DNA of 64,000 nucleotides from Microbacteriaceae bacterium (lineage in GTDB: Bacteria > Actinomycetota > Actinomycetes > Actinomycetales > Microbacteriaceae). The position numbers and the translations under genes are program-made. Positions 5,664 to 64,000 of this stretch are shown here, one piece after another. The notes under the pieces were generated by a model, which made no database searches, was not told the origin of the DNA, and saw only the letters and a list, made by a program, of their open reading frames with translations. Location of the stretch: NCBI GenBank assembly GCA_027487865.1, contig JAIYCT010000002.1, positions 403,038-467,037 on the forward strand. Direction: 5' to 3'. Positions within the stretch are counted from its first letter, which is position 1. Each line of letters starts with the position of its first letter.

Positions 5664-6752
5664 ATGCGCAGAGTAATTGTCCTTGGCTCCACCGGTTCGA
5701 TTGGCACCCAGGCCCTTGAGGTAATTGCCGCAAATCCGGGCCAACTGGAGCTAGTTGGCCTTTCTGCTTTCTCAAACAAAGAACTTGTTTCAGCGCAGGC
5801 AAAACAATTTGGACTCACCGAAAACTCGGTTGCTATCGGTGCTGAGGCAGCGGCGCAGCTGGTTGCCGATCTGGATGCCGATGTTGTCGTAAACGGAATC
5901 ACCGGTTCTGTTGGACTTGCAGCGACCCTTGCGACTTTGAAATCGGGCAAGGTATTGGCACTTGCCAATAAAGAGTCATTGATCGTGGGTGGACCGCTGG
6001 TCAAACAGCTTGCTCGCCCCGGTCAAATCGTCCCGGTTGACTCAGAGCACTCAGCCATTGCGCAGTGCCTTCGGTCGGGTACCGAAGCCGAGGTGGCAAA
6101 GCTGATTCTTACCGCCTCTGGAGGGCCATTCCGCGGTTTTAGCAAGCAGCAACTCGAAGCGGTAACCCCACAGCAAGCTCTCAAGCACCCAACCTGGAGT
6201 ATGGGAAAAGTCGTTACGACCAATTCCGCGAGCTTGGTAAATAAGGGTCTGGAGCTAATAGAAGCTCACCTTTTGTTTGACATTCCTTTTGACCGAATCG
6301 AGGTAACCGTGCATCCGCAATCGGTGGTGCACTCAATGGTTGAGTTTGTCGACGGTTCGGTAATTGCGCAGTGCTCACCACCGGATATGAAGCTTCCGAT
6401 CGCGCTCGGTATGGCATGGCCCGACAGATTGGGGCACGTAAGCGCTGCGGTGGACTGGACTAAGTCGCACAACTGGGTGTTTGAACCGCTGGATGAGGAA
6501 GTCTTTGGCTCTGTGGCGCTTGCCCGACAGGTCGGTATTGCTGGAGAGACCTACCCTGCGGTTTACAACGCAGCCAATGAGCAAGCGGTAGAGGCATTCC
6601 ACGCCGGCAAGATTCGATTCACCGGAATCTTTGAGATCATCGAAGAAGTGGTTTCCCAGCACCAAGCATCTAGTGAGCTAAGTCTCGATTCTGTGCTGGA
6701 TGCCGAGATGTGGGCTCGCAGGACTGCGGATTCGCTGATAGCTAACGCTTAG
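5664..6752 (+). CDS. dxr: 1-deoxy-D-xylulose 5-phosphate reductoisomerase
   Basis: Catalyses the NADPH-dependent rearrangement and reduction of DXP to 2-C-methyl-D-erythritol 4-phosphate, the committed step of the non-mevalonate isoprenoid pathway. 362 residues. The N-terminal NADPH fold carries LGSTGSIG at 7-14; the metal and substrate region carries PVDSEHSA near 123-130; [11 protein letters not shown] and HPTWSMG follow, then HPQSVVHSM near 215-223, as in all Dxr enzymes. It is divergent from gabT with a 77-nt spacer, and it begins a run containing the site-2 protease and ispG, so two MEP-pathway enzymes flank a protease, the usual order in Actinobacteria. Confidence 0.96.
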
Positions 6753-37871: not shown

Positions 37872-38936
37872 ATGCCAAGTGCATCCGACAGAGAGAAAGC
37901 GCTAGATACTGCGCTAGCACAGATTGACCGCCAGTTCGGCAAGGGCTCGGTCATGAGACTCGGCAGCGAAGAGCGCGCTCCAATCGAGGCCATTTCCACC
38001 AGTTCGATCGCCCTAGACGTAGCACTGGGTATCGGTGGCCTGCCTAAAGGTCGAATTGTCGAGATCTATGGCCCAGAGTCCTCCGGAAAGACCACCTTGG
38101 CGCTGCACGCTATCGCCAATGCCCAACGCGCTGGCGGCATTGCTGCCTTTATCGATGCTGAGCACGCTCTCGACCCTGAGTACGCCAAAGCTTTGGGTGT
38201 AGACATCGACGCACTTTTGGTCAGCCAGCCAGACACTGGTGAGCAGGCCTTGGAGATTACCGACATGCTGATCCGTTCGGGATCAATTGACGTGGTCGTA
38301 ATTGACTCGGTTGCCGCTTTGGTTCCTAGGGCAGAAATCGAAGGCGAAATGGGAGACTCACACGTTGGCCTCCAGGCTCGTCTAATGTCCCAGGCTCTTA
38401 GAAAGTTGACCGGAGCTTTGAGCAACACCAACACCACCGCAATCTTTATCAACCAGCTGCGCGAAAAGATCGGTGTGTTCTTTGGTTCTCCTGAGACCAC
38501 CGCGGGTGGTAAGGCTTTGAAGTTCTACGCCTCGGTGCGTTTGGACATCCGCAGAATTGAAACTCTAAAAGAGGGTACCGATGCAGTTGGTAACCGCACC
38601 CGTGTAAAGGTTGTTAAGAACAAGCTAGCGTCGCCTTTCAAGCAGGCCGAATTTGACATCATGTTTGGTGAGGGTATCTCTCGCGAAGGTGGACTTATCG
38701 ATTACGGCGTCGAACAGGACATCGTCAAGAAGTCCGGAGCTTGGTACACCTTCGACGGCGAACAGCTTGGCCAGGGTAAGGAAAACTCTCGTCGCTTCCT
38801 CAAGGACAATCCAGAGATAGCGGACATCATCGAGAAGAAGATCAGGCACAAGCAGGGCATTGGCGTGCCGCGTGCAGTAGCAGACTTGCCAGCCGAGGAG
38901 GCCCCAGAGGTCGCCAAGGCCGCAAACGATGCCTAA
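37872..38936 (+). CDS. recA: Recombinase RecA
   Basis: ATP-dependent strand-exchange protein and co-protease for LexA. 354 residues: N-terminal helix, Walker A GPESSGKT at 67-74, Walker [16 protein letters not shown]-binding loops L1 ([12 protein letters not shown]) and L2 ([21 protein letters not shown]), and an acidic/alanine-rich tail. AAAGAGGT before the ATG. 140-nt leader containing a LexA box near its start. L2 reads [13 protein letters not shown] where most RecA proteins have a Met and TTTGG; these are conservative changes. The stop lies 8 nt inside the recX start. Confidence 0.97.
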
Positions 38937-39414
38937 CGAACCTAGTAGCGAGAAGCTGGAACAGCGGGCGAAAAACGTCCTGCTGTTCCAGCTTTCTCGT
39001 TCCATGAAAACTCGTTACCAGTTAGCCAATATTCTGAAAAAACGTGAAATTCCAGAGGAAATAGCAAACGCCGTCCTGGATCGCTTCACCGAGGCGCAGC
39101 TAATCGATGACGCCGCCTTTGCAAGGGCTTTCGTAAATTCCAGAATCGCGATCTCAGGCAAATCAAGGTCAGTAATTTCTCGCGAGCTAAATCAAAAAGG
39201 CGTCAGCGCGGAGGATGCTCATCAGGCGCTCAGCATCATCGACCAAGAGTCAGAGGATAAGACGGCTTACGCAATAGCCAAAAAGCGCTATCAGCAGCTG
39301 ACATCCCTTGCACCAGATGTCCGTAAACGCCGGCTCATGGGGTTTTTAATGCGCAGAGGTTTCTCCGGCGCCCTAGCATCAAGAATTCTGCGGGACCTAG
39401 AGCAGTCAGAGTAA
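38929..39414 (+). CDS. recX: Regulatory protein RecX
   Basis: Inhibits RecA filament growth. 161 residues with three tandem three-helix RecX repeats (for example [19 protein letters not shown], then [14 protein letters not shown], and the last repeat KRYQQLTSL). ATG starts 8 nt before the recA stop, so it is coupled to recA. Bases 38949-38999, encoding residues about 8-24, form a very strong hairpin that probably reduces transcription into recX. It ends 12 nt before miaB. Confidence 0.88.
38949..38999 (+). terminator. Long hairpin inside 5' coding region of recX
   Basis: CGAGA plus AGCTGGAACAGC plus GGGCG (38949-38970) pairs with CGTCC, GCTGTTCCAGCT and TCTCG (38976-38999), 22 bp with bulged T at 38981 and 38994, loop AAAAA. 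It starts 12 nt after the recA stop. recA and recX are separated by a leaky terminator in other bacteria; here it is within recX coding sequence. Confidence 0.65.
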
Positions 39415-45854: not shown

Positions 45855-46925
45855 GTGACCAATCTCGATGACCTGCCAATTCGCGATGACCTTAGAGGAC
45901 TGAAACCCTACGGTGCTCCTCAGCTTGATGTGCCTGTTCAGCTGAACGTAAACGAGAACACTTTTGGCATTCCAGAGGCAGTGGCACTGGACATCATTCA
46001 AGAGTTAGCTTCCGAGGTACTAAGACTCAACCGCTATCCAGACCGAGAGTTCATAGAACTCAGGGGACAGTTTGCGGCTTTTCTGGGACATGGCCTAAGC
46101 GCTAGTCAGACCTGGGCAGCGAACGGCTCCAACGAAATCCTCACCCAAATCTTCCAAGCCTTTGGCGGACCGGGTAAATCAGCTCTAAGTTTTGGCCCGA
46201 CATATTCGATGTATCCAAACATTGCTCGCATAACCCTCACTGATTACCGCGAACTTCCTCGCGAGGCTGCTTTTGAACTGTCTTCGGGTTACGTGGCCGA
46301 GCAATTGGCTGCCCACAAGCCGTCAATTGCGATCTTATGCAACCCAAACAACCCAACTGGAACATCGATTGACAACGAGGTCGTTCGAGCTGCCTATGAC
46401 GCCTTTGATGGCATTTTGGTGATTGATGAGGCGTATGCGGAGTTCTCTTCAGAATCCTCCGCTGTTGAGTTGTTGGCAGGACGTCCACGTTTGATCGTTA
46501 GTCGCACCATGAGCAAGGCATTTGCATTTGCCGGAGCGCGAGTCGGATACATGGCTGCTGACGAGGCCGTTGTGGACGCGCTGCGGATTGTACGTCTTCC
46601 TTATCACCTGTCGGCTTTGACCCAGGCTGCTGCGAGAGCAGCACTTCGTCATGCACCGGAAATGCTTGCGAATGTTGAGCAGATTAAGGTTCAAAGAGAC
46701 CGAATGATTGCTCAGCTGGGGCTCTTGGGCCTGAGCGCATACAAATCAGAAGCTAACTTCGTGTTGGTAGAAGGTTTTGAGAATCCCAACGAGGTTTTTG
46801 AGGCGCTGTTGGCCAGGGGAGTAATAGTCCGTAACGTCGGAATCCCCAACACATTGCGCATAACAGCAGGTACTGAGGCAGAGACCAGCAAATTACTCGG
46901 TGAACTAGCCTTGATTCTTGGCTAA
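45855..46925 (+). CDS. hisC: Histidinol-phosphate aminotransferase
   Basis: PLP enzyme converting imidazole acetol phosphate to histidinol phosphate. 356 residues, GTG start. Motifs: LNVNENTFG near 31-39, [30 protein letters not shown]221 in [17 protein letters not shown], and LRITAGT near the end. Begins a his run (hisC-hisB-hisH-hisA) lacking hisD, hisG, hisF and hisI, which must lie elsewhere. TAATCT at N6 suggests a leaderless message starting after the LysM gene. Confidence 0.94.
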
Positions 46926-46957
46926 ACTTGGGACATCTTCCCAAACGAGGTCCAAAC

Positions 46958-47557
46958 ATGAGCCGAATTGCAAAGCTTTCCCGCGCAACAAGCGAGTCCA
47001 AGATCGAACTTGAGTTGAACCTTGATGGTTCAGGTCAGTCCGAGATTGAGACCGGTGTGCCATTTTTCGACCACATGTTGACCGCTTTTTCCAAGCACTC
47101 ACTCATTGACCTCAAGGTCAAATCTGTTGGCGATATCGAAATCGATGTTCACCACACCGTTGAGGACACCGCAATCGTCTTGGGCCAAGCCATCAAGCAG
47201 GCGCTTGGAGACAAGGCCGGTATCGCACGTTACGGCGACGCTACTGTGCCGCTGGATGAGGCCTTGGCACGTGCGGTTGTGGATGTTTCAGGTAGGCCGT
47301 TTCTGGTCCACTCTGGAGAGCCTCAAGGTTTTGAATTCCACCTAATCGGTGGTCACTTCACGGGTTCGATGGTGCGACACGTTTTTGAGGCAATCGCCTA
47401 CAACGCGGGCCTTACGCTGCACGTGACCGTGCTAGCGGGCCGTGACGCTCACCACATTGCCGAGGCCGAGTTCAAAGCACTGGCTCGCGCTATGCGCAAG
47501 GCAGTAGAGCTTGATGTTCGAGTATCTGGCGTTCCTTCAACTAAGGGAAGCCTTTGA
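46958..47557 (+). CDS. hisB: Imidazoleglycerol-phosphate dehydratase
   Basis: Manganese enzyme dehydrating IGP to imidazole acetol phosphate, just before HisC. 199 residues, the monofunctional length. Metal-binding histidine clusters are [21 protein letters not shown], and [20 protein letters not shown] at 46958 is preferred over an upstream in-frame start because ACGAGG precedes it and the added ten residues are not family-like. Overlaps hisH by 4 nt. Confidence 0.94.
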
Positions 47558-48183
47558 CTAAGACCGTCGCGGTCTTTGACTACGGCAGTGGCAATATTCA
47601 CTCAGCCTGTCGCGCCCTAGAGCACGCCGGTGCGGAGGTGTTTCTAACCTCAGATCGCAAGGTTCTTTTAGAAGCAGACGGCATGCTGCTTCCGGGAGTG
47701 GGGGCATTTGCTTCGGTGATGAGAAACCTAACCAAACACAATGCAGCCAGCCTTATCGACCAGCGCCTGACAGCGGGACGAGCTGTGCTTGGTATTTGCG
47801 TTGGCATGCAGGTGATGTTTGAGCATGGCGTCGAGCACGGGATTGATACCGAGGGCCTTGGACAGTGGCCAGGTTCAGTAACCATGCTTGAAGCTCCAAC
47901 TTTGCCGCACATCGGCTGGAGCAAGGTTTCAAGCGATCCCAAGAGTTCTCTATTCGAAGGAGTCGAGGATGAACGCTTTTACTTCGTCCACTCCTATGCC
48001 GCAAAAAACTGGGAGCTAGATATTCAGCCGCCTTTTGTGAAGGCAGCGTTGACCTGGTCCGAACACGGCGAACGTTTTTTGGCAGCGATCGAAAACGGTC
48101 CGCTCAGTGCAACCCAATTCCACCCCGAAAAATCAGGCGAAGCAGGTTTGCAGCTGCTTCGAAACTGGATTCGTTCTATCTAG
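47554..48183 (+). CDS. hisH: Imidazole glycerol phosphate synthase subunit HisH
   Basis: Glutaminase subunit supplying ammonia to HisF. 209 residues from a TTG start in the hisB stop (TTGA). Catalytic C82 in [13 protein letters not shown], His/Glu in TQFHPEKSG; oxyanion region PGVGAF. hisF is not adjacent, although it normally follows hisA, so the partner must be elsewhere. Followed 7 nt later by hisA/priA. Confidence 0.94.
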
Positions 48184-48190
48184 GAGACAC

Positions 48191-48916
48191 ATGAAACTCG
48201 AACTTTTGCCAGCGGTTGATGTTGCCAGCGGTAAGGCTGTCCGTCTGACTCAAGGTGAGGCCGGTAGCGAGGAGGACTTTGGTCACCCTCTTGCTGCAGC
48301 GCAGGATTGGATTAGCGCTGGGGCAGAGTGGATTCACCTGGTTGATCTGGATGCTGCATTTGGCAGGGGAGACAATCGGGCCGTGATCGCCGAAGTTGTT
48401 GGTCAAGCCGGAACTACCAAAATCGAACTCTCCGGTGGTATCCGCGATGACGCATCGCTGGCCGCCGCTTTGGAACTTGGTGCTACCCGCGTCAACCTTG
48501 GCACCGCTGCGCTGGAGAACCCAGAGTGGACTGAGAGCGTGATTGCTAAGTACGGGGATCAGATTGCTGTTGGTCTAGATGTCAGGGGTACAACTCTGGC
48601 TGCCAGAGGGTGGACTCAAGAGGGCGGAGATCTGTTCGAGGTGCTGGCCCGGCTGGAAGGCGCTGGCTGCTCACGCTATGTAGTAACGGATGTAACCAAG
48701 GACGGCACGCTACGCGGTCCAAACCTCGAGCTTTTGAAGCAGGTCATGCAGTTCACCAGCAAGCCGGTGGTCGCATCCGGTGGGATTTCATCGCTTCAGG
48801 ACATCAAGGACCTGCTGGAGCTAGTTCCACTTGGCTTGGAGGGAGCGATTTTGGGTAAGTCGCTCTACGCTGGCCGCTTTAGCCTGCAAGAAGCTCTCGC
48901 AATCGCCAACGGCTAA
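48191..48916 (+). CDS. priA: Phosphoribosyl isomerase HisA/PriA
   Basis: (Beta/alpha)8 isomerase for the ProFAR step of histidine synthesis; in Actinobacteria the same enzyme usually also serves tryptophan synthesis (TrpF reaction). 241 residues from ATG at 48191 with AGGAG upstream. D10 in [52 protein letters not shown]. The [10 protein letters not shown] loop resembles bifunctional PriA; dual activity is inferred, not proven, and hisA is the safer functional name. Overlaps the SseB gene by one base. Confidence 0.9.
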
Positions 48917-49656
48917 TGCACGACAAATTTCACGATTCTGCTGGCGTTCCCTGGGAAGGTCGAGAATTCTCGCAAAACAACTGGTCTCAAGACGATGGCT
49001 CAACCCCAAAAGCTTTAGCTGAAGTCCTGAATCGCGAGCTAGATAAAGAGGCTCTCTTTAGCGCGCTGTCGCAATCTCGATTGCTAATTCCATTGCTTGC
49101 AGAACTTGGGGAAAGTGGTGTTGGGGCGCACGGTGAAACTGTCGATAAGAGCGCAGATTTGGCAATCGTGGCAGTCAGCACACCCGATGGTAAAACTGCG
49201 ATACCGGCATTTAGCTCGGTTGCCGAGATGACCGCTTGGAATCAAACCGCGAGGCCAGTCCCGGTAGAGAGCGCAAAGCTGGCAATTGCAGCAATCGGCG
49301 AGGGGCATGAACGAGTAATTCTCAACCCAGCAGGTCTAGCAATCGGCATTCGCCGGCCGGCGCTCGCTGCATTGGCCCAGGGACTTAGCTGGAAGCCACC
49401 GCATAAAAACGAGTTGGTTTTGCAAATGATTTTCCAGGCTTCTGCACAGCAGTCTGAGATTCAGACGGTCAGAGCATTTGATGCCGACCCTACCGGGCAG
49501 CTACAAAAGCCTGAATTAGGCCTTGAAATTATGTTGGTTGGTGGTCTGACTCAAGAGCAGTTGCAGCAAGTGTTGACAAAGTTTGGAACCACTTTGCAAA
49601 CCCAAGAGTTCTTGCAGCTGGTGGACTCCTTCACCATCAAATTGGTTGCGGGCTAG
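48916..49656 (+). CDS. SseB family protein
   Basis: 246 residues, actinobacterial SseB-like protein that follows hisA/priA in many genomes. The N-terminal GVPWEGREFSQNNWSQDDGSTPKAL and the middle AIPAFSSVAEMTAWNQTARPVPVESAKLA are diagnostic, while the C-terminal half is variable. No enzyme motif, signal peptide or membrane segment is visible. Function is unknown in this setting. Its stop overlaps the convergent DUF1844 gene by 4 nt. Confidence 0.85.
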   Translation: MHDKFHDSAGVPWEGREFSQNNWSQDDGSTPKALAEVLNRELDKEALFSALSQSRLLIPLLAELGESGVGAHGETVDKSADLAIVAVSTPDGKTAIPAFSSVAEMTAWNQTARPVPVESAKLAIAAIGEGHERVILNPAGLAIGIRRPALAALAQGLSWKPPHKNELVLQMIFQASAQQSEIQTVRAFDADPTGQLQKPELGLEIMLVGGLTQEQLQQVLTKFGTTLQTQEFLQLVDSFTIKLVAG

Positions 49657-49973
49657 TTCACCGGACCGGTGTATTTCTCTCCGGGCCCTTTGCCTGGTTC
49701 GTCTGGGAATGCCGATGCTTCTCTAAAGGCAAGCTGCAGTGAACGTAATCCATCGCGAAGTGGTCGGGCATGGTGATCGCCAATCTCAGGTGCGGCAGCG
49801 GTAATCAGTCCAGCCAGCGCGGTAATCAGCTTTCTTGCCTCATCGAGGTCAGCCGGCGCATCTTCGGCGAGACCGCACTGCACGGCAGCCGCGCTCATCA
49901 GGTGCACAGCGGCAGTGTTGATAATTTCTACGGCAGGGACTTCGGCAATGTCTCTGGTGAGCTCTTCGGACAA
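49653..49973 (-). CDS. DUF1844 family protein
   Basis: 106 residues, TTG start with GAGGAATTT upstream. Conserved DUF1844 core: VPAVEIINTAAVHLMSAAAVQCGL followed by DLDEARKLITALAGLITAA. Always next to infC in Actinobacteria, on the opposite strand; function unknown. C-terminal Pro/Gly tail is variable. Upstream region is shared divergently with the infC promoter. Confidence 0.88.
   Translation of the reverse strand: MSEELTRDIAEVPAVEIINTAAVHLMSAAAVQCGLAEDAPADLDEARKLITALAGLITAAAPEIGDHHARPLRDGLRSLQLAFREASAFPDEPGKGPGEKYTGPVN
49659..49671. terminator. Palindrome at sseB/DUF1844 convergent ends
   Basis: CACCGGACCGGTG reads the same on both strands apart from its centre and can form a CACC/GGTG hairpin in either transcript. 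TATTTCTCT follows on the plus strand. Possible bidirectional terminator, weak. Confidence 0.35.
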
Positions 49974-50005
49974 AATTCCTCTTTCGAAAATGGGTTTTGT
50001 TCTGC

Positions 50006-50152
50006 TAGGCTACCTGAGGCTCTGGGCTAATAGCTCAGTGAAAGTGGATTACATTCCCACCTGTCTACCGCCTCTAAAGGTATCCGGGTTTGAGCGTTTG
50101 ATGCTTTTGCGCGCATATCGTGCGAGTCAAAACGGTACCTAAGGAGCTAGTT
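50006..50152 (+). promoter_or_regulatory. infC promoter and folded leader
   Basis: TTCGAA (49983-49988), 17-nt spacer, TAGGCT (50006-50011) is a plausible promoter. The roughly 135-nt leader contains CTGGGCT/AGCTCAG (50022-50038), GTGG/CCAC (50044-50060) and a CCT/AGG hairpin, then AAGGAG (50141-50146). IF3 operons are controlled through the leader or initiation codon in other bacteria. Confidence 0.5.
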
Positions 50153-50734
50153 ATCAGCGATCCGCGCATCAATGAGCGTATTCGTGTCACCGAGGTTCGA
50201 CTAATCGGACCTGCAGGTGAACAGGTTGGCGTTGTCCCTATTGATCAAGCATTGAGAATGGCCCGTGAGGCAGACCTAGACCTAGTCGAGGTAGCACCGG
50301 AAGCCAATCCTCCAGTTTGCAAGGTAATGGACTATGGCAAGTTCAAGTACGAAGCCGCACAGAAGGTTCGCGAAGCTAGAAAGAACCAGGTCAATACCGT
50401 GTTGAAGACGGTTCGTTTCGGTCTAAAGATCGACGATCACGACTACAACACCAAAGTTGGACAGGTTCGCAAATTCCTAAAGGCCGGCGACAAGGTGAAG
50501 GTGATGGTTGTCTTCCGCGGTCGCGAGCAGTCACGTCCAGAGATGGGTGTGAACTTGCTTCGCAAGCTAGCGGATGAAGTAACCGAATTCGGAACCGTGG
50601 AGTCGAACCCTTCGATTGATGGCCGCAACATGGTCATGGTCATTGGGCCGTTGAAGAACAAAGCAGAGGCAAGGGCCGAAGCTAAAAAGGCCCAAGCTAA
50701 GCCTGCACAGGCCGAAGCAACATTAGAGAACTAA
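50153..50734 (+). CDS. infC: Translation initiation factor IF-3, with AUC start codon
   Basis: Keeps 30S subunits apart and checks start-codon choice. 193 residues from ATC at 50153. The site AAGGAG (50141-50146) is 6 nt before this codon, and the family N-terminus [11 protein letters not shown] begins straight after it. A GTG at 50120 would add eleven residues containing the binding site itself. Non-standard AUU/AUC starts are known in infC and allow IF3 to limit its own synthesis. N- and C-terminal domains are complete, and the C-terminal [18 protein letters not shown] tail is an actinobacterial extension. Followed by rpmI after 9 nt. Confidence 0.9.
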
Positions 50735-50743
50735 GGAGAGATC

Positions 50744-50938
50744 ATGCCGAAAATGAAGACCCACTCGGGCGCCAAGAAGCGTTTCCGCTTTACCGGCAGC
50801 GGCAAGCTGATGAAGCAGCAGATCAACATGCGCCACAACCTGGAGCACAAGTCATCAAGACGCACCCGTCGTCTAAACCAGGACCAGGTAGTGTCCCCAG
50901 CAGATTTCAAGAAGCTAAAGAGACAGCTCGGCCGCTAG
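50744..50938 (+). CDS. rpmI: 50S ribosomal protein L35
   Basis: 64-residue basic protein of the large subunit. [20 protein letters not shown] at the N-terminus and [14 protein letters not shown] are the L35 signature. AAGGAG before the ATG. Part of infC-rpmI-rplT. Confidence 0.96.
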
Positions 50939-50964
50939 CCGACGCTTAGAAATAGGAGTAGAAA

Positions 50965-51348
50965 ATGGCAAGAGTAAAAAACGCCGTCAACTCGCTGAAG
51001 AAGCGTCGTGTTGCGCTTGAGCGCGCTCACGGTTACCGCGGCCAGCGTTCACGTTTGTACCGTATGGCAAAGCAGCAGCTACTGCACTCGTTGGTTTACG
51101 CATACAACGACCGCAGAAAGAACAAGGGTAACTTCCGTCGCCTTTGGATTCAGCGCATCAACGCAGCTGCTCGTCTAAACGGCATGACCTACAACCGCTT
51201 TATCCAGGGCCTAGCGCTTGCTGGTATCGAGGTTGACCGTCGCATCATGGCTGACCTAGCAATCCACGACCCAAAGGCCTTCGCGTCTTTGGTTGCATCT
51301 GCAAAGGCAGCACTGCCTAAGGATGTAAACGCGGCCAAGGCTAGCTAA
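50965..51348 (+). CDS. rplT: 50S ribosomal protein L20
   Basis: 127 residues, assembly-initiator protein of the large subunit. Signature [32 protein letters not shown] at the N-terminus and [22 protein letters not shown] in the body. Its C-terminal tail ([13 protein letters not shown]) is a short variable extension. Stop shares one base with the next ATG; the operon terminator is inside that next gene. Confidence 0.97.
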
Positions 51349-52145
51349 TGCTTGACGCCCCCAAATCCGAAAGGGTGAAGGGGGTCGCACGCCTACAACA
51401 AAAAGACGCCCGGTTAGAAACCGGGCTCTTTTTGCTTGAGGGGCCTCAGGGGCTCAAGGAGCTTTGTAAGCAACCGGAGCTGGCACAAGAGGTCTTTGCG
51501 ACCGCTAATGCCCTTGATCGGTATGAGAATTTATTCGATCAGCTCTATGACGCCTCGGTTCCAATTATTGAGGTCTCCGATTTGGTCATGGAGAAGCTTG
51601 CAGACACCAAGACTCCGCAGGGCGTTGTTGCTGTTGTTTCTCAGTTTGATGTCAGCCTCGAAGAGCTGATTGCCTCAGGTCCCCAGCTGATTGCCATCCT
51701 GGATCAGGCTCGCGATCCAGGTAATGGTGGCACTGTGATTCGCGCAGCTGATGCCGCAGGTGCGGACGCTGTCATCTTCACAACTGATTCAGTTGATCTT
51801 TACAACCCGAAGCTGGTTCGTTCAACCGCAGGCAGCATCTTGCATGTCCCCGCAGTTATCAATCAAGACCCCGCTGAATTAGTAGCAGCCCTCAAGGCAG
51901 CTGGTATTCAGGTATTCGCTGCCAGTGCCGGTGGAAAATTGATCACTGAAATCACAGCACAACTCTCAAAGCCAACCGCTTGGATCTTTGGTAACGAAGC
52001 CCACGGCGTCTCACCTGAAATGCTTCAGTTGGCGGATGAAATTGTCGCTCTGCCGATTTTTGGAGCAGCAGAATCGCTAAACCTTGCTACAGCAGCTTCA
52101 GTTTGCCTGTATGCCTCAGCGTTTGAAATGCGAAGCAATCGCTAA
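51348..52145 (+). CDS. TrmH/SpoU family RNA 2'-O-methyltransferase
   Basis: 265 residues, SPOUT fold. N-terminal RNA-binding region (about 1-95) and catalytic domain with motif 1 ARDPGNGGTVIRAADAAG, motif 2 WIFGNEAHGVS, and motif 3 PIFGAAESLNLATAASVCLY, forming the knot. Substrate is a ribose in rRNA or tRNA, probably 23S rRNA as in RlmB/TsnR proteins. ATG overlaps the rplT stop by one base. Codons 18-29 (QKDARLETGLFL) coincide with an intrinsic terminator, so this gene is transcribed only by readthrough or by weak internal promotion. Followed by pheS. Confidence 0.9.
   Translation: MLDAPKSERVKGVARLQQKDARLETGLFLLEGPQGLKELCKQPELAQEVFATANALDRYENLFDQLYDASVPIIEVSDLVMEKLADTKTPQGVVAVVSQFDVSLEELIASGPQLIAILDQARDPGNGGTVIRAADAAGADAVIFTTDSVDLYNPKLVRSTAGSILHVPAVINQDPAELVAALKAAGIQVFAASAGGKLITEITAQLSKPTAWIFGNEAHGVSPEMLQLADEIVALPIFGAAESLNLATAASVCLYASAFEMRSNR
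51400..51433 (+). terminator. Intrinsic terminator embedded in methyltransferase coding sequence
   Basis: GCCCGGTT (51408-51415), loop AGA, AACCGGGC (51419-51426), followed by TCTTTTT (51427-51433). Upstream AAAAAGA (51400-51406) can extend the stem with one bulged C. All elements of a rho-independent terminator are present, 52 nt after the rplT stop. Confidence 0.85.
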
Positions 52146-52148
52146 ACT
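52143..52148 (+). promoter_or_regulatory. -10 hexamer overlapping stop codon, leaderless pheS start
   Basis: TAAACT contains the TAA stop of the methyltransferase and is followed by 6 nt and the pheS GTG at 52155. Confidence 0.45.
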
Positions 52149-52154
52149 TTACGA

Positions 52155-53189
52155 GTGTCTGAACAACTAACAGCCGAAACAGTAAGCCAAGCGCTTGCTT
52201 CCTCTCTTGCGCTTGTGCAAAAGGCAGACAACTTTCAAGACCTAAAGGCCATCAAAGCTTCTGCAGTTGGCGAAGAGTCGCCACTTTCAAAGCTCAATGC
52301 CCTTATCAAGTCGCTTCCAAACGACCAAAAGGCTGAGGCTGGAAGGTTGGTTGGGGCCGCGAGGGCCGAGCTGAATGCCGCTTTCGCAACCAAGGAATCC
52401 GAGCTGCAGGCTGTTGCGGATTCAGAGGCTCTGGAATTAGAGCGCGTTGACATCACCGCCTACCCAAGAGTTGCTCCAAAGGGTGCAAGGCACCCGCTGT
52501 CGCTTCTAATGGATTCGATTAGCGATGTTTTCATCGGTATGGGTTGGGAAATTGCAGATGGTCCGGAGCTTGAAAACGAGTGGTTCAACTTTGATGCACT
52601 GAATTTCCACCCGGATCACCCGGCACGTGCCATGCAGGATACGTTCTTTGTAGCGCCAGTGGACAACCACCTACTGCTGCGCACGCACACATCTCCGGTG
52701 CAGGTGCGCTCACTGCTAGAGCGCGAATTGCCGCTTTATGTGCTTTGCCCGGGACGGGTTTTCCGCACCGATGAGCTCGATGCCACCCACACCCCGGTAT
52801 TTCACCAGGTGGAAGGGCTAGCGGTCGACAAGGGTCTAACCATGTCTGATCTCAAGGGCACCCTGGAGCACTTCGCACGGGTGATGTTTGGACCCGAAGC
52901 CAAGATCAGATTGCGCCCGAGCTTTTTCCCATTCACTGAGCCATCGGCAGAGTTGGATGTGTGGCACCCAGGCGCTAAGGGCGGCGCACGCTGGGTTGAG
53001 TGGGGCGGCTGCGGAATGGTCAACCCCAATGTTTTGCTTGCCGCAGGCATCGACCCTGAGGTTTACACCGGATTCGCCTTCGGCATGGGCATTGAGCGCA
53101 CCTTGATGTTCCGCAATGGAGTTCGAGACATGCACGACATGGTGGAAGCCGACGCTCGGTTCTCCCAGCAGTTTGGCTCGGTGATCTGA
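52155..53189 (+). CDS. pheS: Phenylalanyl-tRNA synthetase alpha subunit
   Basis: Catalytic subunit of the (alpha-beta)2 enzyme. 344 residues from a GTG start: N-terminal coiled coil (1-85), then the class II core with motif 1 RHPLSLLMDSISDVFIGMGWEI, motif 2 VFRTDELDATHTPVFHQVEGL, and motif 3 FGMGIERTLMFRNGV. No Shine-Dalgarno; a -10-like TAAACT 6 nt upstream suggests leaderless transcription, allowing expression after the embedded terminator. Overlaps pheT by one base. Confidence 0.96.
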   Translation: MSEQLTAETVSQALASSLALVQKADNFQDLKAIKASAVGEESPLSKLNALIKSLPNDQKAEAGRLVGAARAELNAAFATKESELQAVADSEALELERVDITAYPRVAPKGARHPLSLLMDSISDVFIGMGWEIADGPELENEWFNFDALNFHPDHPARAMQDTFFVAPVDNHLLLRTHTSPVQVRSLLERELPLYVLCPGRVFRTDELDATHTPVFHQVEGLAVDKGLTMSDLKGTLEHFARVMFGPEAKIRLRPSFFPFTEPSAELDVWHPGAKGGARWVEWGGCGMVNPNVLLAAGIDPEVYTGFAFGMGIERTLMFRNGVRDMHDMVEADARFSQQFGSVI

Positions 53190-55660
53190 TGAGAGTTCCT
53201 TTGAGCTGGTTGGCAGAGTTCGTAGAACTGCCTCAGAATTCCACCCCGGACGATGTCATGGCGCAGCTTGTAAAAGTTGGGCTTGAGGAAGAGGGCTCTC
53301 ACGGCGGAGATATCCGCGGTCCAATTGTGGTTGGCAAGGTTTTGGAGTTTGTCGAGGAGCCTCAGTCGAACGGCAAGACCATTCGCTGGTGCCAGGTTGA
53401 GGTTGCCCCAGGTGTCGTAAACGGCGTGGTTTGCGGTGCAAGAAACTTCTTCGAGGGCGACAAGGTGGTCGTTACTCTGCCAGGGGCAGCGCTTCCTGGT
53501 GGCTTTGAGATTGCAGCGCGCAAGACTTATGGGCACGTCTCCGATGGAATGATCGCCTCCTCAAGGGAACTCGGACTCAGCGATGACCACGAGGGAATTC
53601 TCAGGCTTTCAACTCTTGGGCTTGACCCTGAAGTTGGCACCGATGCCCTAGAACTTTTGGGGCTAAATGAATCTGCCGCTGAGGTCAATGTCACCCCAGA
53701 TCGCGGTTACTGCCTTTCGATTCGCGGCATAGCGCGCGAGTACAGTCACGCCTCAGGCGCAAAGTTCACGGACCCTGCAACCAAAGTTTCCGCTAAAGCC
53801 GGCAGTGGATTTAGCGTCCAGGTTCAGGACGATGCTCCAATCCACGGCGTTCCCGGATCTTCTATTTTTACAACCCTTGGAGTCTCAGGGATTGACGCAA
53901 ATGCACCTGTACCGAGCTGGATGGCGAATCGTCTCAAGCTTGCGGGCATGCGTTCGATCTCGATCGCTGTCGACATCACCAACTATGTGATGTTGGAACT
54001 TGGACAGCCAATTCACGCCTATGACCAGGACAGACTCGTTGGCGGGATAACCGTGCGACGCGCTGTTGCTGGGGAACAACTTCAAACCCTGGATGAGAAG
54101 GTTCGCACCCTTCACCCTGAAGACCTTTTGATCTGCGACGACTCTGGACCAATTGGTCTGGCAGGAGTCATGGGAGGAGCCTCTTCCGAGGTCAGCTCAG
54201 CCACAAAGAACGTGCTGATTGAAGCGGCGTTGTTTGATCCGATTTCAATTGCTCGTACTGCTCGCAGACACAAGCTGGCATCGGAGGCATCCAAGCGCTT
54301 CGAGCGCGGAGTTGACCCGGAAGTTGGTCCAATTGCGGCCGCTCGTGTGGCACAGCTTTTGGTTGAACTTGCCGGCGGGCAGCTCAATGGTTTTGGCTCG
54401 AGCTACCGAACTGACCTTCCAAAGATTGAGATCGAGCTACCGTTTGCTTTTGCGTTGGAGCTGGTGGGAGTCGACTACGCCAACCAACAGATTTTGGATC
54501 TTTTGCATCAGATCGGTTGCGAGCTTCGAGTCCACGATGACGCTGTCACAGTAACTCCTCCAAGTTGGAGACCAGATATTCGTCACAAGACAGATTTGGT
54601 CGAGGAGGTCGCAAGACTTGCTGGTTACCACCTGATTCCTTCCAGGATTCCAGTTGCCCCTCCAGGTCGAGGTCTGACACCAAGGCAGCAATTCCGTCGC
54701 AGGGCACTTGCTGGTTTAGCTGGAGCGGGTTTCACCGAAGTTTTGAACTACCCGTTTTACTCCGAACAGCAAAACCGTGAGTTCTCACAGAGCCCTGCAC
54801 TCAGGCTAGAAAACCCAATGCAGGGGGATAGTCCGGAACTGAGAAACAGCTTGATCCCAGGACTGCTGCAGGCAGCGGCCAGAAATCTTTCGCGTGGAAC
54901 CACCGACGTTGCTTTGATTGAAGAGGGCTCGGTATTCCTTCCAGCTCAGGGCAATGCGACTACCTCACTTCCGGTCGGCAACGTTCGCCCAAGCTCTGAA
55001 CAACTTGCTGAGTTGAACGCCTCAATTCCAGTTCAGCCAAGGCACCTAGCTGGAGTTGTGCTAGGAGACTGGATCCCTCAGGCTCCTGGGCAGCAGGCAG
55101 TTCAGTCCGGCTACCCGCAGGCAATTTTGGCTGTTGAGCAGATCACTCGTGCCGCCGGAGTTCCGTTTGAGATTAGACAGTCAACCGTGTTGGGTTTCCA
55201 CTCGGGAAGAGCCGCCGAGGTATTGGTCGAAGGTGAAATCGTTGGTCATCTGGGCGAGGTTGCTCCGGCGCTAACAGCCGAGTATCACCTGCCTCGAAAA
55301 GTTGCAGCATTCGAGATAAATCTTGATGCGCTATTCGCTCACGCTCCGGAAGTTTTGCAGGCTGCAGAGCTCCGAGTCATGCCGGCCGCTACTCAGGATC
55401 TATCGCTTTTGGTTTCCCTGGATGTTCCAGCCGCGGACCTGATTGCTGTTATTCGTGAGGGTGCGGGAGATCTTCTGGAAGATGTTTCGCTGGTCGATGA
55501 TTACCGCGGCGACAACGTGCCAGCGGGCAGTAAGTCTGTCACGTTCAGCCTTCGCTTCAGGGCAGCTGATCGCACATTGACTCAGGCTGAGGCCACCTTG
55601 TCTAAAGACGCAGCGGTTGCTTTGGCAAGTCAAAAATTTGGCGCAACCCTAAGGGCGTAG
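53189..55660 (+). CDS. pheT: Phenylalanyl-tRNA synthetase beta subunit
   Basis: 823 residues, full length. Domains: B1 with EMAP-like tRNA-binding fold (about 40-150), B3/B4 editing region with VTPDRGYCLSIRGIAREY and GLAGVMGGASSEVS, B5 (LPKIEIELPFAFALELVGV), class II-like core (RHKTDLVEEVARLAGY), and C-terminal ferredoxin-like anticodon-binding domain (SLLVSLDVPAADLIAVIREGAGDLL). ATG shares one base with the pheS stop; argC begins at the next base after its stop. Confidence 0.96.
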   Translation: MRVPLSWLAEFVELPQNSTPDDVMAQLVKVGLEEEGSHGGDIRGPIVVGKVLEFVEEPQSNGKTIRWCQVEVAPGVVNGVVCGARNFFEGDKVVVTLPGAALPGGFEIAARKTYGHVSDGMIASSRELGLSDDHEGILRLSTLGLDPEVGTDALELLGLNESAAEVNVTPDRGYCLSIRGIAREYSHASGAKFTDPATKVSAKAGSGFSVQVQDDAPIHGVPGSSIFTTLGVSGIDANAPVPSWMANRLKLAGMRSISIAVDITNYVMLELGQPIHAYDQDRLVGGITVRRAVAGEQLQTLDEKVRTLHPEDLLICDDSGPIGLAGVMGGASSEVSSATKNVLIEAALFDPISIARTARRHKLASEASKRFERGVDPEVGPIAAARVAQLLVELAGGQLNGFGSSYRTDLPKIEIELPFAFALELVGVDYANQQILDLLHQIGCELRVHDDAVTVTPPSWRPDIRHKTDLVEEVARLAGYHLIPSRIPVAPPGRGLTPRQQFRRRALAGLAGAGFTEVLNYPFYSEQQNREFSQSPALRLENPMQGDSPELRNSLIPGLLQAAARNLSRGTTDVALIEEGSVFLPAQGNATTSLPVGNVRPSSEQLAELNASIPVQPRHLAGVVLGDWIPQAPGQQAVQSGYPQAILAVEQITRAAGVPFEIRQSTVLGFHSGRAAEVLVEGEIVGHLGEVAPALTAEYHLPRKVAAFEINLDALFAHAPEVLQAAELRVMPAATQDLSLLVSLDVPAADLIAVIREGAGDLLEDVSLVDDYRGDNVPAGSKSVTFSLRFRAADRTLTQAEATLSKDAAVALASQKFGATLRA

Positions 55661-56707
55661 ATGGTATTCAAGGTCGCAGTAGCTGGAGCCAGCGGTTATG
55701 TCGGTGGTGAATTGCTGCGCCTGATTGCTATGCATCCAGAACTTGAACTTGGCGCTGTTACCGCCAACACAAATGCCGGCCAACCAGTCTCCGCCCTGCA
55801 TCCTCACCTAAAAAGTTATGAAGATCGAGTTTTCGTGGAGACCAGCAGGGAGAGCCTTGCAGGTCACGACATTGTGTTCTTAGCGCTTCCGCATGCCACC
55901 AGCGCTGAAGTGGCCGCTTACCTGCCAGAGAGTTTTTTGGTTTTGGACTGCGGTGCAGACTTCCGGCTCAAGGATTCCAAGGCCTGGGAGAAGTTTTACG
56001 GCACCGCACATGCTGGCACCTGGGCCTACGGTATGCCGGAGCTCACTTTGGCTAGCGGAGGAAAGCAACGTGAGAATCTGCGCGGGGTGAATCGGGTGGC
56101 GGTTCCGGGTTGCAATGTCACAGCAATCACCTTGGCACTAGCTCCAGCTCTTACCGCCGGGCTTATTGAACCAAAGGACATCGTTTCAGTTCTCTCGGTG
56201 GGAACTTCGGGTGCTGGAAGAAGCTTGAAGGCAGACCTACTCGCTAGCGAAGTTCAAGGATCAGCCCGCGCATACGGTGTCGGTGGAATCCATCGACACA
56301 CTCCAGAGATTGAACAGAATTTGGCACATGCATCGGGTGCGGAGGTGAAGGTGTCTTTCACACCGGTTTTGGTTCCAATGTCCCGCGGAATTTTGGCCGT
56401 GAACACCGCGAAGGTGAGCAATAGCTTTAGCTTTACCAAGTTAGTTGCTGCATATGAGCAGGCTTACGGTGATGAGGTATTTATCCAGGTATTAGGTGAG
56501 GGGCAGCAGCCCAACACCTCATCGGTTTTGGGAGTCAACACCGCTCAGATTTCTTTGAGTTTTGATCAGTCAGCGCAGCGCGTGGTTATTGTTTCTGCAA
56601 TTGACAACTTGGTCAAGGGAACCGCCGGAGCTGCCATTCAGAGCATGAACCTCGCACTTGGCTTGCCGGAAACCCTTGGGTTGCCAATCGATGGAGTGGC
56701 GCCGTGA
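55661..56707 (+). CDS. argC: N-acetyl-gamma-glutamyl-phosphate reductase
   Basis: NADPH-dependent reduction in arginine biosynthesis. 348 residues. NADP motif [14 protein letters not shown] (8-21), catalytic C151 in [11 protein letters not shown], and [16 protein letters not shown]. It begins directly after the pheT stop with zero spacing, so its promoter must be in or before pheT. Overlaps argJ by 4 nt. First gene of argCJBFH. Confidence 0.95.
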
Positions 56708-57858
56708 GCGTGACCTTTGCCAAAGGCTTCGCCGCCAGCGGTGTGGCCTGCGGGCTCAAGACCTCGGGCAAGAAAGATCTCGCAGTAGTTGTAAACCAGG
56801 GACCGCTGCAGTTAGCTGCCGCTGTTTTCACTACTAACCGCTGTCAGGCGAATCCAATCCTTTGGTCCAAAGAGGTCATCAAGGATCAGAAAGTATCGGC
56901 AATTGTCCTGAACTCCGGGGGTGCCAATTGCTACACCGGACCGCAAGGTTTTCAAACCACTCATGCCACAGCGGAAGCTCTTGCTAATCACCTAGAGGTC
57001 TCATCTTCGGATGTATTGGTGTGCTCCACTGGCCTAATTGGCGAGCAGTTGGATCGCGAGAAGCTTTTGGACGGCGTGAAGAGCGCGGTTGACACCTTGT
57101 CTCACGATGGCGGAGTTGTTGCAAGCGAAGCCATCATGACCACCGACTCGGTTGCCAAGCGCGCCGAAGCTGAATCACCCAGCGGCTGGCGAATCGGTGG
57201 TATGGCCAAAGGCGCAGGAATGCTTGCTCCGGGGCTTGCAACCATGCTGGTGGTCATCACAACTGATGCGGTAGTTGGCTCAGCAGAGTTAGATTCAGCA
57301 CTCAGGGCGGCCACTCGGGTTTCTTTTGATCGCTTGGATTCCGATGGCTGCATGTCCACTAACGACCAGGTGACCTTGATGGCGTCTGGTGCTTCGGGGA
57401 TTGCGGCTCAATTGGATGAATTTCAAGAGCTTCTCACTCAGGTTTGCAAAGAGCTGGCGTTGAAATTGCTTGATGATGCAGAAGGTGCTTCCCACAACAT
57501 CCACATCACTGTCGAGGGTGCGGCAAGTGAGGACGATGCCGTTGAGGTTGCCAGGTCGGTAGCTCGCAACAACTTGTTCAAGGCGGCAATCTATGGCAAC
57601 GATCCAAACTGGGGCCGAATCCTTGCCGCGGTTGGAACCACTAAGGCCGAATTTGACCCATACAACATCGATGTTGCCATCAACGGAGTACTAATCTCCA
57701 GCAATGGCCAACCAGCAGGGGATAGAGGTTTGATTGACCTTGCGCCTCGCAAGGTGGAGATCAACATCAACCTAAATGTCGGTGTTGATTTCGCAACCGT
57801 GGTGACCAATGACTTGACCCACGAATACGTCGAAGAGAACAGCGCATACTCCAGCTAA
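56704..57858 (+). CDS. argJ: Bifunctional ornithine acetyltransferase/N-acetylglutamate synthase
   Basis: Recycles the acetyl group from N-acetylornithine to glutamate. 384 residues, GTG start overlapping argC. Autoprocessing site A179-T180 in [12 protein letters not shown], with T180 the new N-terminal nucleophile; KGAGMLAPG precedes it. The C-terminal [14 protein letters not shown] segment is intact. Because ArgJ recycles acetyl groups, no argE is needed. It overlaps argB by one base. Confidence 0.95.
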
Positions 57859-58745
57859 TGATTCCTGCCAACCCAGACCAAGCGCTCGCCCGCATCAAGG
57901 CCGAGACTCTAATCGAGTCTCTGGATTGGTTGCGCGAGTTTCACGGGCGAATTGTGGTTGTGAAGTTTGGTGGTAACGCGATGGTCGATGAGGCTTTGCA
58001 GACAGCATTCGCGCAGGACATGGCGTATTTGAGATTTGTCGGTATCAAGCCGGTGGTGGTTCACGGCGGCGGACCTCAAATCACCGCTCGTCTTTCGGAG
58101 CTTGGTATTCAAAGCGAATTTAAGCACGGCTTTAGGTACACCGACGAACAGACCATCAAGGTCGTTCGCGATGTATTGCGAAATCAGGTCAGCAAACAGC
58201 TTGCGGAACTTATCGAAGCCTCTGGAGCCCAGACTGTGGTGCTTTCAGGCGAAGACGACAATCTCTTCAGGGCCGAGAAGGTAACTGCCTCAACACAAGA
58301 GGGTGAAGTAGATCTGGGACTTGTCGGAGAGGTCCGCACGGTAAACCCAAGAAGCGTGCTGCAGGCCATCGACGCTGGCAAGATACCGGTTATCTCAACC
58401 GTCGCACCAACGGTTTATGGTGAGCTGCTAAATGTGAACGCAGATCTGGCAGCCTCGTCCTTGGCTGTAGCGCTGGGCGCAGAGAAACTCATGGTTCTCA
58501 CCGACGTTCCTGGGCTCTATGCCGACTGGCCAAACTTGGACTCACTGGTATCTGAGATCACGGTTTCGGAATTGCGGGAACTTATTCCAGCATTGGAATC
58601 TGGCATGATTCCAAAGATGCAGGCTTGTCTTGAGGCGGTAGAGGGTGGTGTGCCAAAAGCACACATTATTGATGGCCGTCAACCGCACAGCATTCTGCTT
58701 GAGATTTTTACTGAGTCCGGTGTCGGCACTCAGGTAACTAACTAA
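57858..58745 (+). CDS. argB: Acetylglutamate kinase
   Basis: Phosphorylates N-acetylglutamate; normally feedback-inhibited by arginine in organisms with the ArgJ cycle. 295 residues: N-terminal helix (ALARIKAETLIESLDWLREF) of the arginine-sensitive type, VVKFGGNAM near 34-42, VVHGGGPQI near 69-77, and LNVNADLAASSLAVALGAEKLMVLTDVPG. ATG overlaps argJ by one base. The next gene is argF, so argD is missing at the position it normally holds. Confidence 0.95.
   Translation: MIPANPDQALARIKAETLIESLDWLREFHGRIVVVKFGGNAMVDEALQTAFAQDMAYLRFVGIKPVVVHGGGPQITARLSELGIQSEFKHGFRYTDEQTIKVVRDVLRNQVSKQLAELIEASGAQTVVLSGEDDNLFRAEKVTASTQEGEVDLGLVGEVRTVNPRSVLQAIDAGKIPVISTVAPTVYGELLNVNADLAASSLAVALGAEKLMVLTDVPGLYADWPNLDSLVSEITVSELRELIPALESGMIPKMQACLEAVEGGVPKAHIIDGRQPHSILLEIFTESGVGTQVTN

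Positions 58746-62894: not shown

Positions 62895-64000
<1,106 letters not shown>

Follow-up and report, generated by a model that had tools for sequence, protein, structure and literature searches.

Within the window (the whole 64,000-nt stretch of Microbacteriaceae DNA that was analysed), infC, rpmI and rplT are followed by a gene for a SpoU-family methyltransferase and then by pheS, as assigned from the ORF list and Pfam matches; the long ORF 3' of pheS is presumably pheT. The features at this junction are as follows.

50120–50734, plus strand: infC (IF-3; Pfam IF3_N/IF3_C and ORF list; predicted start codon)
50744–50938, plus strand: rpmI (L35; Pfam Ribosomal_L35p)
50965–51348, plus strand: rplT (L20; Pfam Ribosomal_L20), in which the last A of the stop codon TAA is the first base of the methyltransferase ATG
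51348–52145, plus strand: gene for a SpoU-family (MRM3-like) 2'-O-methyltransferase of 265 aa (Pfam SpoU_methylase, 1.2e-38; MRM3-like_sub_bind)
51400–51407, plus strand: A-tract AAAAAGAC, codons 18–20, which can pair with the T-tract and thereby lengthen the stem
51408–51426, plus strand: putative terminator stem-loop GCCCGGTT-AGA-AACCGGGC, codons 21–27, conserved in 21 of 21 loci of the genus
51427–51433, plus strand: T-tract TCTTTTT, codons 27–29; the RNA 3' end would fall at about 51431–51433
52155–53189, plus strand: pheS (Pfam), next gene of the putative operon

SpoU catalytic and substrate-binding domains of the methyltransferase scored above the Pfam cut-offs (PF00588, PF22435 and PF08032), and the cut-off of no NCBIfam model was reached. 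The MRM3-like_sub_bind domain spans residues 8–95, hairpin codons included, and the residues encoded by the hairpin (A-R-x-x-T-G-L-F-L-x-E-G) recur in hairpin-less relatives, often via other codons. The hairpin thus does not lie within a mis-annotated leader, and the statement in an earlier note on this DNA that its bases encode conserved residues is borne out by both the domain and the motif. At all 21 loci of the genus, the rplT stop and the methyltransferase start share 1 nt and pheS follows in the same direction, with a gap of 8–14 nt as measured by our script. Outside the genus, pheS lies within the flanks of 8 of 27 loci examined; bearers of the embedded hairpin such as L086, L095, L101 and L106 have no pheS in their flanks, so that the embedded form is not tied to this gene. 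A pattern scan between 51433 and 52155 returned no sigma70-like site, which is weak evidence on whether the downstream gene has a promoter of its own.

The stem arms (51408–51415 and 51419–51426) form eight pairs, six of them GC, around the 3-nt loop AGA (51416–51418), as is typical of intrinsic terminators, and the U-rich tract expected of such elements is provided by TCTTTTT at positions +1 to +7 after the stem, with a single C. The coordinates, pairs, loop and tail given in the earlier note are all correct, although that version of the hairpin was shorter than the one found here, since the A-tract pairs with the T-tract; its distance of 52 nt into the gene holds for the A-tract at 51400, while the stem itself begins at nt 61 of the ORF (ATG at 51348). 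The 66-nt segment 51380–51445 folds at -30.8 kcal/mol (z -3.47), and none of 200 shuffles was as stable. A generic terminator-pattern scan of 46000–58000 showed no enrichment (15 hits found, 14.3 expected) and listed the methyltransferase hairpin first.

Elsewhere, the segment 49990–50150, 5' of infC, appears structured by eye and may be a ribosomal-protein leader; it matched no Rfam family and no tRNA. Rfam searches gave no match over 49500–53500 at E values up to 1 and, at gathering thresholds over the whole window, nothing but the SSU rRNA at the end of the window, where a 16S rRNA gene (62897–64000) is cut off.

Selection on the hairpin bases and codon choice

An orthologue of the methyltransferase gene was present in 21 of 22 same-genus genomes (the genome without one, G011, is 76% complete), and the hairpin is kept in all 21. 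Codons 21–30 rank first of 257 ten-codon windows for synonymous identity (0.949 versus a median of 0.412), with a drop to 0.42 in the window starting at codon 31. In a count made without selection for the stem, standard pairs occupied 156 of 168 core pair cells, versus 37–93 with the partner slid by 1–3 nt. Three stem pairs have changes on both sides, all in one lineage (L009), and the flanking pairs between A-tract and T-tract are standard in 21 of 21 loci. The loop-side pair 68–72 is open in 11 of the 21, arguing against a strict need for the eighth pair. The conservation at synonymous sites indicates that the hairpin is under selection as nucleic acid and is not there by chance. Free synonymous breakage of the stem, which the earlier note had said would speak against its reading, was not seen; the stem is kept across relatives.

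Codon choice could be followed further in the family outside the genus, where 107 of 113 matches were examined (rplT adjacent in 101). Bearers were redefined by the stem alone, avoiding circularity, which gave 37 of 107. Leu30 is spelled TTG, TTA or CTT in 34 of 34 stem-bearers versus 8 of 53 others (T-rich Leu codons elsewhere in the same genes: 82 of 564), and Phe28 is spelled TTT in 21 of 35 bearers versus 7 of 70 others. At Leu27 (7/35 versus 5/49) and Leu29 (8/36 versus 8/65), T-rich codons did not differ significantly between bearers and others. T-rich codons thus travel with the stem at two of the four tail positions. The T content of three control windows is equal in bearers and others, and their GC contents are 0.674 and 0.682, respectively. 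Upstream codons are enriched in A in the family's stem-bearers (p=2e-6), and these codons pair with the T-tract; part of the T signal may therefore reflect a lengthening of the stem. A bidirectional terminator would give the same A-rich/T-rich pattern.

These data bear on the idea that conserved residues and codon bias produce the hairpin and the T-run as a protein-driven coincidence. When codons 1–40 were recoded synonymously with the codon usage of the window, 6 of 20,000 versions gave an equal hairpin and T-tract (at least eight pairs with G-T allowed, at least six GC pairs and at least five T in eight), and 13 of 20,000 reached the strength of the real hairpin with the gene's own codon usage. 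A laxer rule (at least six pairs, at least four of them GC) was satisfied by 1,044 of 20,000; such weaker versions, arising in 5% of recodings, are what the coincidence has in its favor, and they show that the protein motif itself predisposes to weaker hairpins. We think that the motif makes the site easy to evolve, its R...G codons supplying complementary GC runs and GGN-CTN-TTY-YTN a T-rich tail. Yet so few recodings reach the real strength, and stem-less relatives so often spell the same residues as CGC, GGC, TTC and CTC, that coincidence is very improbable; codon choice already contradicts it.

Distribution of putative embedded and intergenic terminators

The criteria for a hairpin were chosen after an initial view of the family loci and then applied uniformly. 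At the 107 family junctions, we counted embedded terminators at 38, intergenic ones at 51 (both kinds at 4) and neither at 22; a detectable terminator is hence not obligatory. The embedded form is associated with a short gap between the rplT stop and the methyltransferase start. With a gap below 60 nt, 27 of 28 loci have the embedded form and none has an intergenic terminator, while 11 of 73 have the embedded form at gaps of at least 60 nt (Fisher 1e-14 over the 101 loci with rplT adjacent; p=9e-13 with one locus per genus, 75 genera). Moreover, the two kinds avoid each other (both at 4 of the 101 loci, embedded only at 34, intergenic only at 45, neither at 18; p=2e-9), and this avoidance persists at gaps of 60–100 nt (p=0.014), where seven family members use only an embedded terminator.

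Counting the genus of the window, 32 of 80 genera include the embedded form. Both states are present in five of them; the character therefore turns over, and the best single-gene tree requires at least 20 changes of the embedded state. The family counts are not phylogenetically independent, and only 4 independent pairs lie on well-supported branches, too few for a correlation test; among these pairs, an average of 1.6 have the gap changing in the same direction as the embedded state, and in none does it clearly go the other way.

A further 129 loci comprised 42 outside the genus (some of them in the family) and 87 outside the family, after six in-family loci had been dropped and the partial locus L079 excluded. 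Fifteen passed the criteria for an embedded terminator; several high-GC passes among them, with irregular stems and C-rich tails, are probably chance, and we place weight only on seven. Five are mycobacterial (two Mycobacteroides, three Mycobacterium sp.) and have, at the same codons, a hairpin of another sequence, ACCGGCCCGCCG...CGGCGGGCCGGT, followed by CTTTTTCT, a T-tract without an upstream A-tract. The other two (L252 and L259) are single loci from two other families of the same class with a similar embedded hairpin.

Nineteen of the 129 loci have a strong hairpin around the methyltransferase start codon, where the same terminator seems to be placed differently. Such hairpins were seen in Dietzia (L048, L049, L053, L055, L063 and L064), Amycolatopsis (L051, L062, L065, L071, L072 and L074), f81 (L246–L248) and others. 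In a clostridial contig (L069:3053–3085), a 13-bp hairpin with the tail TTGTTGTG lies at the same methyltransferase codons; rplT was not found beside the methyltransferase gene there.

The core GCCCGG-N7-CCGGGC occurs once in the 1.47-Mb genome, and an origin as a dispersed repeat or uptake sequence was ruled out on this ground. A palindrome acting at the DNA level, as an operator or an uptake/repeat sequence, would fit a core that is palindromic and similar across genera. It would recur genome-wide, which this core does not, and it accounts neither for the T-rich tail nor for the different sequence at the same codons in the mycobacterial loci; we consider it exceedingly improbable.

An RNA structure with a function other than termination is better placed, if still improbable. 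It might slow the start of methyltransferase translation, protect the 3' end of rplT mRNA after cleavage or serve as an RNase site. The lengthening of the stem by A/U pairing would suit such a role, and the E. coli pheM terminator hairpin is described as an RNase III site as well (PMC5371410). Such a structure gives no reason to expect a T-rich tail, mutual avoidance with intergenic terminators or an effect of gap length, and at the five mycobacterial loci the T-tract is present but an upstream A-tract is not.

Hairpins inside other ORFs

A second example of this architecture appears to lie 3' of recA, involving two features.

38929–39414, plus strand: recX-like ORF, whose ATG overlaps the recA stop
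38954–38993, plus strand: hairpin in the recX ORF, from nt 26 of the code (-29.8 kcal/mol), followed by TTCTCGTT

We take the ORF to be recX from its position 3' of recA (itself assigned by motifs) and from the label used in the earlier note, whose mention of a hairpin there proved real: the hairpin was detected in 11 of 18 loci of the genus. No comparable hairpin was found in the best-matching 28 of 54 family loci outside the genus, in which L329 has a weak one further in. The genus thus appears to have two sites at which such a step-down lies within the following gene.

ORF-internal hairpins were also sought in a sample of 464 kb (the window plus 400 kb), with a detector that needs long uninterrupted stems and consequently misses structures like the recX hairpin. 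Ten terminator-like hairpins fell in the first 150 nt of ORFs versus nine in mid-ORF segments of about four times the length (p=0.002). Four of these first ten are weak (no more stable than -9.5 kcal/mol), one (L292) has no long ORF running through it and one looks protein-driven; since several are weak, protein-driven or outside a real ORF, a genome-wide policy is unsupported. In the window itself, an ORF that we take from its sequence to be dxr-like has, 74 nt into it, a terminator-like hairpin at 5738–5761 (-14.8 kcal/mol, tail TTCTGCTT). Near position 7911 of L291, on the minus strand, a hairpin of -21.9 kcal/mol lies 81 nt into an ORF and close 3' of the upstream gene's stop, a possible third embedded terminator; this ORF presumably encodes a TctB-type membrane protein. 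An sdhC-like ORF in the genome sample has an ORF-internal hairpin, as do the dxr-like and tctB-like ORFs.

The earlier note had seen in the methyltransferase and recX hairpins a space-saving strategy. This idea did not hold up: terminators at the same codons occur in relatives of 3–4.3 Mb (L101 and L109, 4.2 Mb; L125 and L140, 4.3 Mb), so that genome size is not the driver, the seven relatives with gaps of 60–100 nt embed only, and the recX hairpin went undetected in the 28 family loci.

Proposed read-through and attenuation at the rplT junction

The hairpin is very probably the intrinsic terminator of infC-rpmI-rplT, built into codons 18–29 of the next gene and throttling the methyltransferase and, in the genus, pheS. 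What is observed is a hairpin with a T-tract that is coding, is conserved at synonymous sites, is nearly exclusive with intergenic terminators and goes with a short or absent gap. Of the operon terminator proposed in the earlier note, a terminator-like element that doubles as code and is kept at synonymous sites in relatives is thereby supported, whereas we infer termination at the hairpin, its strength, a low expression of the methyltransferase and the purpose of a step-down. Polymerase leaving rplT would transcribe the hairpin, which would fold, and most polymerases would come off within the T-tract, about 84 nt beyond the stop codon of rplT. The remaining minority would read through to give the messages for the methyltransferase and, in the genus, pheS, so that a low-copy enzyme would be expressed at a lower level than the ribosomal proteins. 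Transcript ends reported for Streptomyces fall at a median of 66–76 nt beyond the preceding CDS (PMC12207403), which makes the distance from the rplT stop ordinary.

Terminators controlling how much transcription passes into a following gene have been described before, and E. coli has an attenuator between rplT and pheS. In the E. coli rplT-pheM-pheST operon, the pheM attenuator is reported to limit pheST transcription from the syntenic place, 3' of rplT and 5' of pheS (PMC5371410). That attenuator comes after a leader peptide rich in Phe and responds to charged tRNA via alternative structures, while the element described here is inside the gene of a full-length enzyme, and neither a leader peptide nor a consistent alternative structure was seen. 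About 10% read-through is cited for the terminator between E. coli recA and recX, and in Shigella/E. coli dksA-gluQ-rs the terminator structure contains the first predicted AUG of gluQ-rs (both in PMC3542578). These systems share the order of an upstream gene, an intrinsic terminator and a gene fed by read-through, here presumed, and the position of the rplT/methyltransferase hairpin matches this layout of co-directional genes, with a presumed contrast in expression. As described there, their terminators are intergenic or surround the start codon; in the present case, stem, loop and T-tract all lie within a conserved coding motif, and, unlike in those systems, an embedded terminator has shaped codon choice in about thirty genera.

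RNA 3' ends inside ORFs have been recorded by Term-seq in E. coli, some with intrinsic-terminator scores (PMC7815308), and in Streptomyces clavuligerus, at 342 of 1,769 ends (PMC8269248). Such ends are discussed as premature or regulatory in the E. coli study and were left out of the S. clavuligerus one; neither account of them describes an operon terminator conserved in the code of the next gene. In the open-access literature, we found no description of a terminator that lies whole within a conserved coding motif of the gene downstream and is retained across genera.

As the hairpin is translated, closely following ribosomes could override termination, a testable refinement. It is possible, though on balance we doubt it, that the terminator is a translation-responsive attenuator, a special case in which a ribosome re-initiating at the overlapping ATG melts the hairpin. 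Read-through would then report how tightly ribosomes trail polymerase, or how freely the L20 mRNA is translated. The 1-nt overlap in 21 of 21 genus loci fits such a mechanism, as do the site within rather than before the code, retained in the seven relatives that have intergenic room, and the E. coli pheM attenuator at the same junction (PMC5371410). Yet in 14 of the 38 family bearers, the two genes are separated by 18–52 nt instead of overlapping. In addition, inspection by eye of minimum-energy folds for 59 embedded loci showed the terminator retained, with upstream hairpins that vary and no consistent alternative structure, and no Rfam family matched. Codons 1–30 contain a single Phe and belong to a 265-aa enzyme, so that this is not a leader ORF of the pheM type. 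In species described as having runaway transcription, the stretch of nascent RNA in front of the ribosomes is exposed (PMC13323073).

Returning to the terminator built into codons 18–29, we regard it as natural dual coding in bacteria: a terminator and conserved residues share bases, and codon choice tracks the terminator across about thirty genera. Terminator finders and Term-seq studies that discard ORF-internal signals could miss the main terminator of an operon. More doubtful is an attenuator embedded in codons that has arisen repeatedly within a single actinobacterial family, in about thirty of its genera, and in scattered other genera, and at which the translating ribosome decides on read-through; if this were true, coupling between ribosome and polymerase where a ribosomal-protein operon ends would set the expression of the putative rRNA methylase and, in the genus, of pheS. 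The embedded terminators may also offer a comparative test of how closely ribosomes follow polymerase in Actinobacteria: if they follow closely, an embedded terminator should fail when translated.
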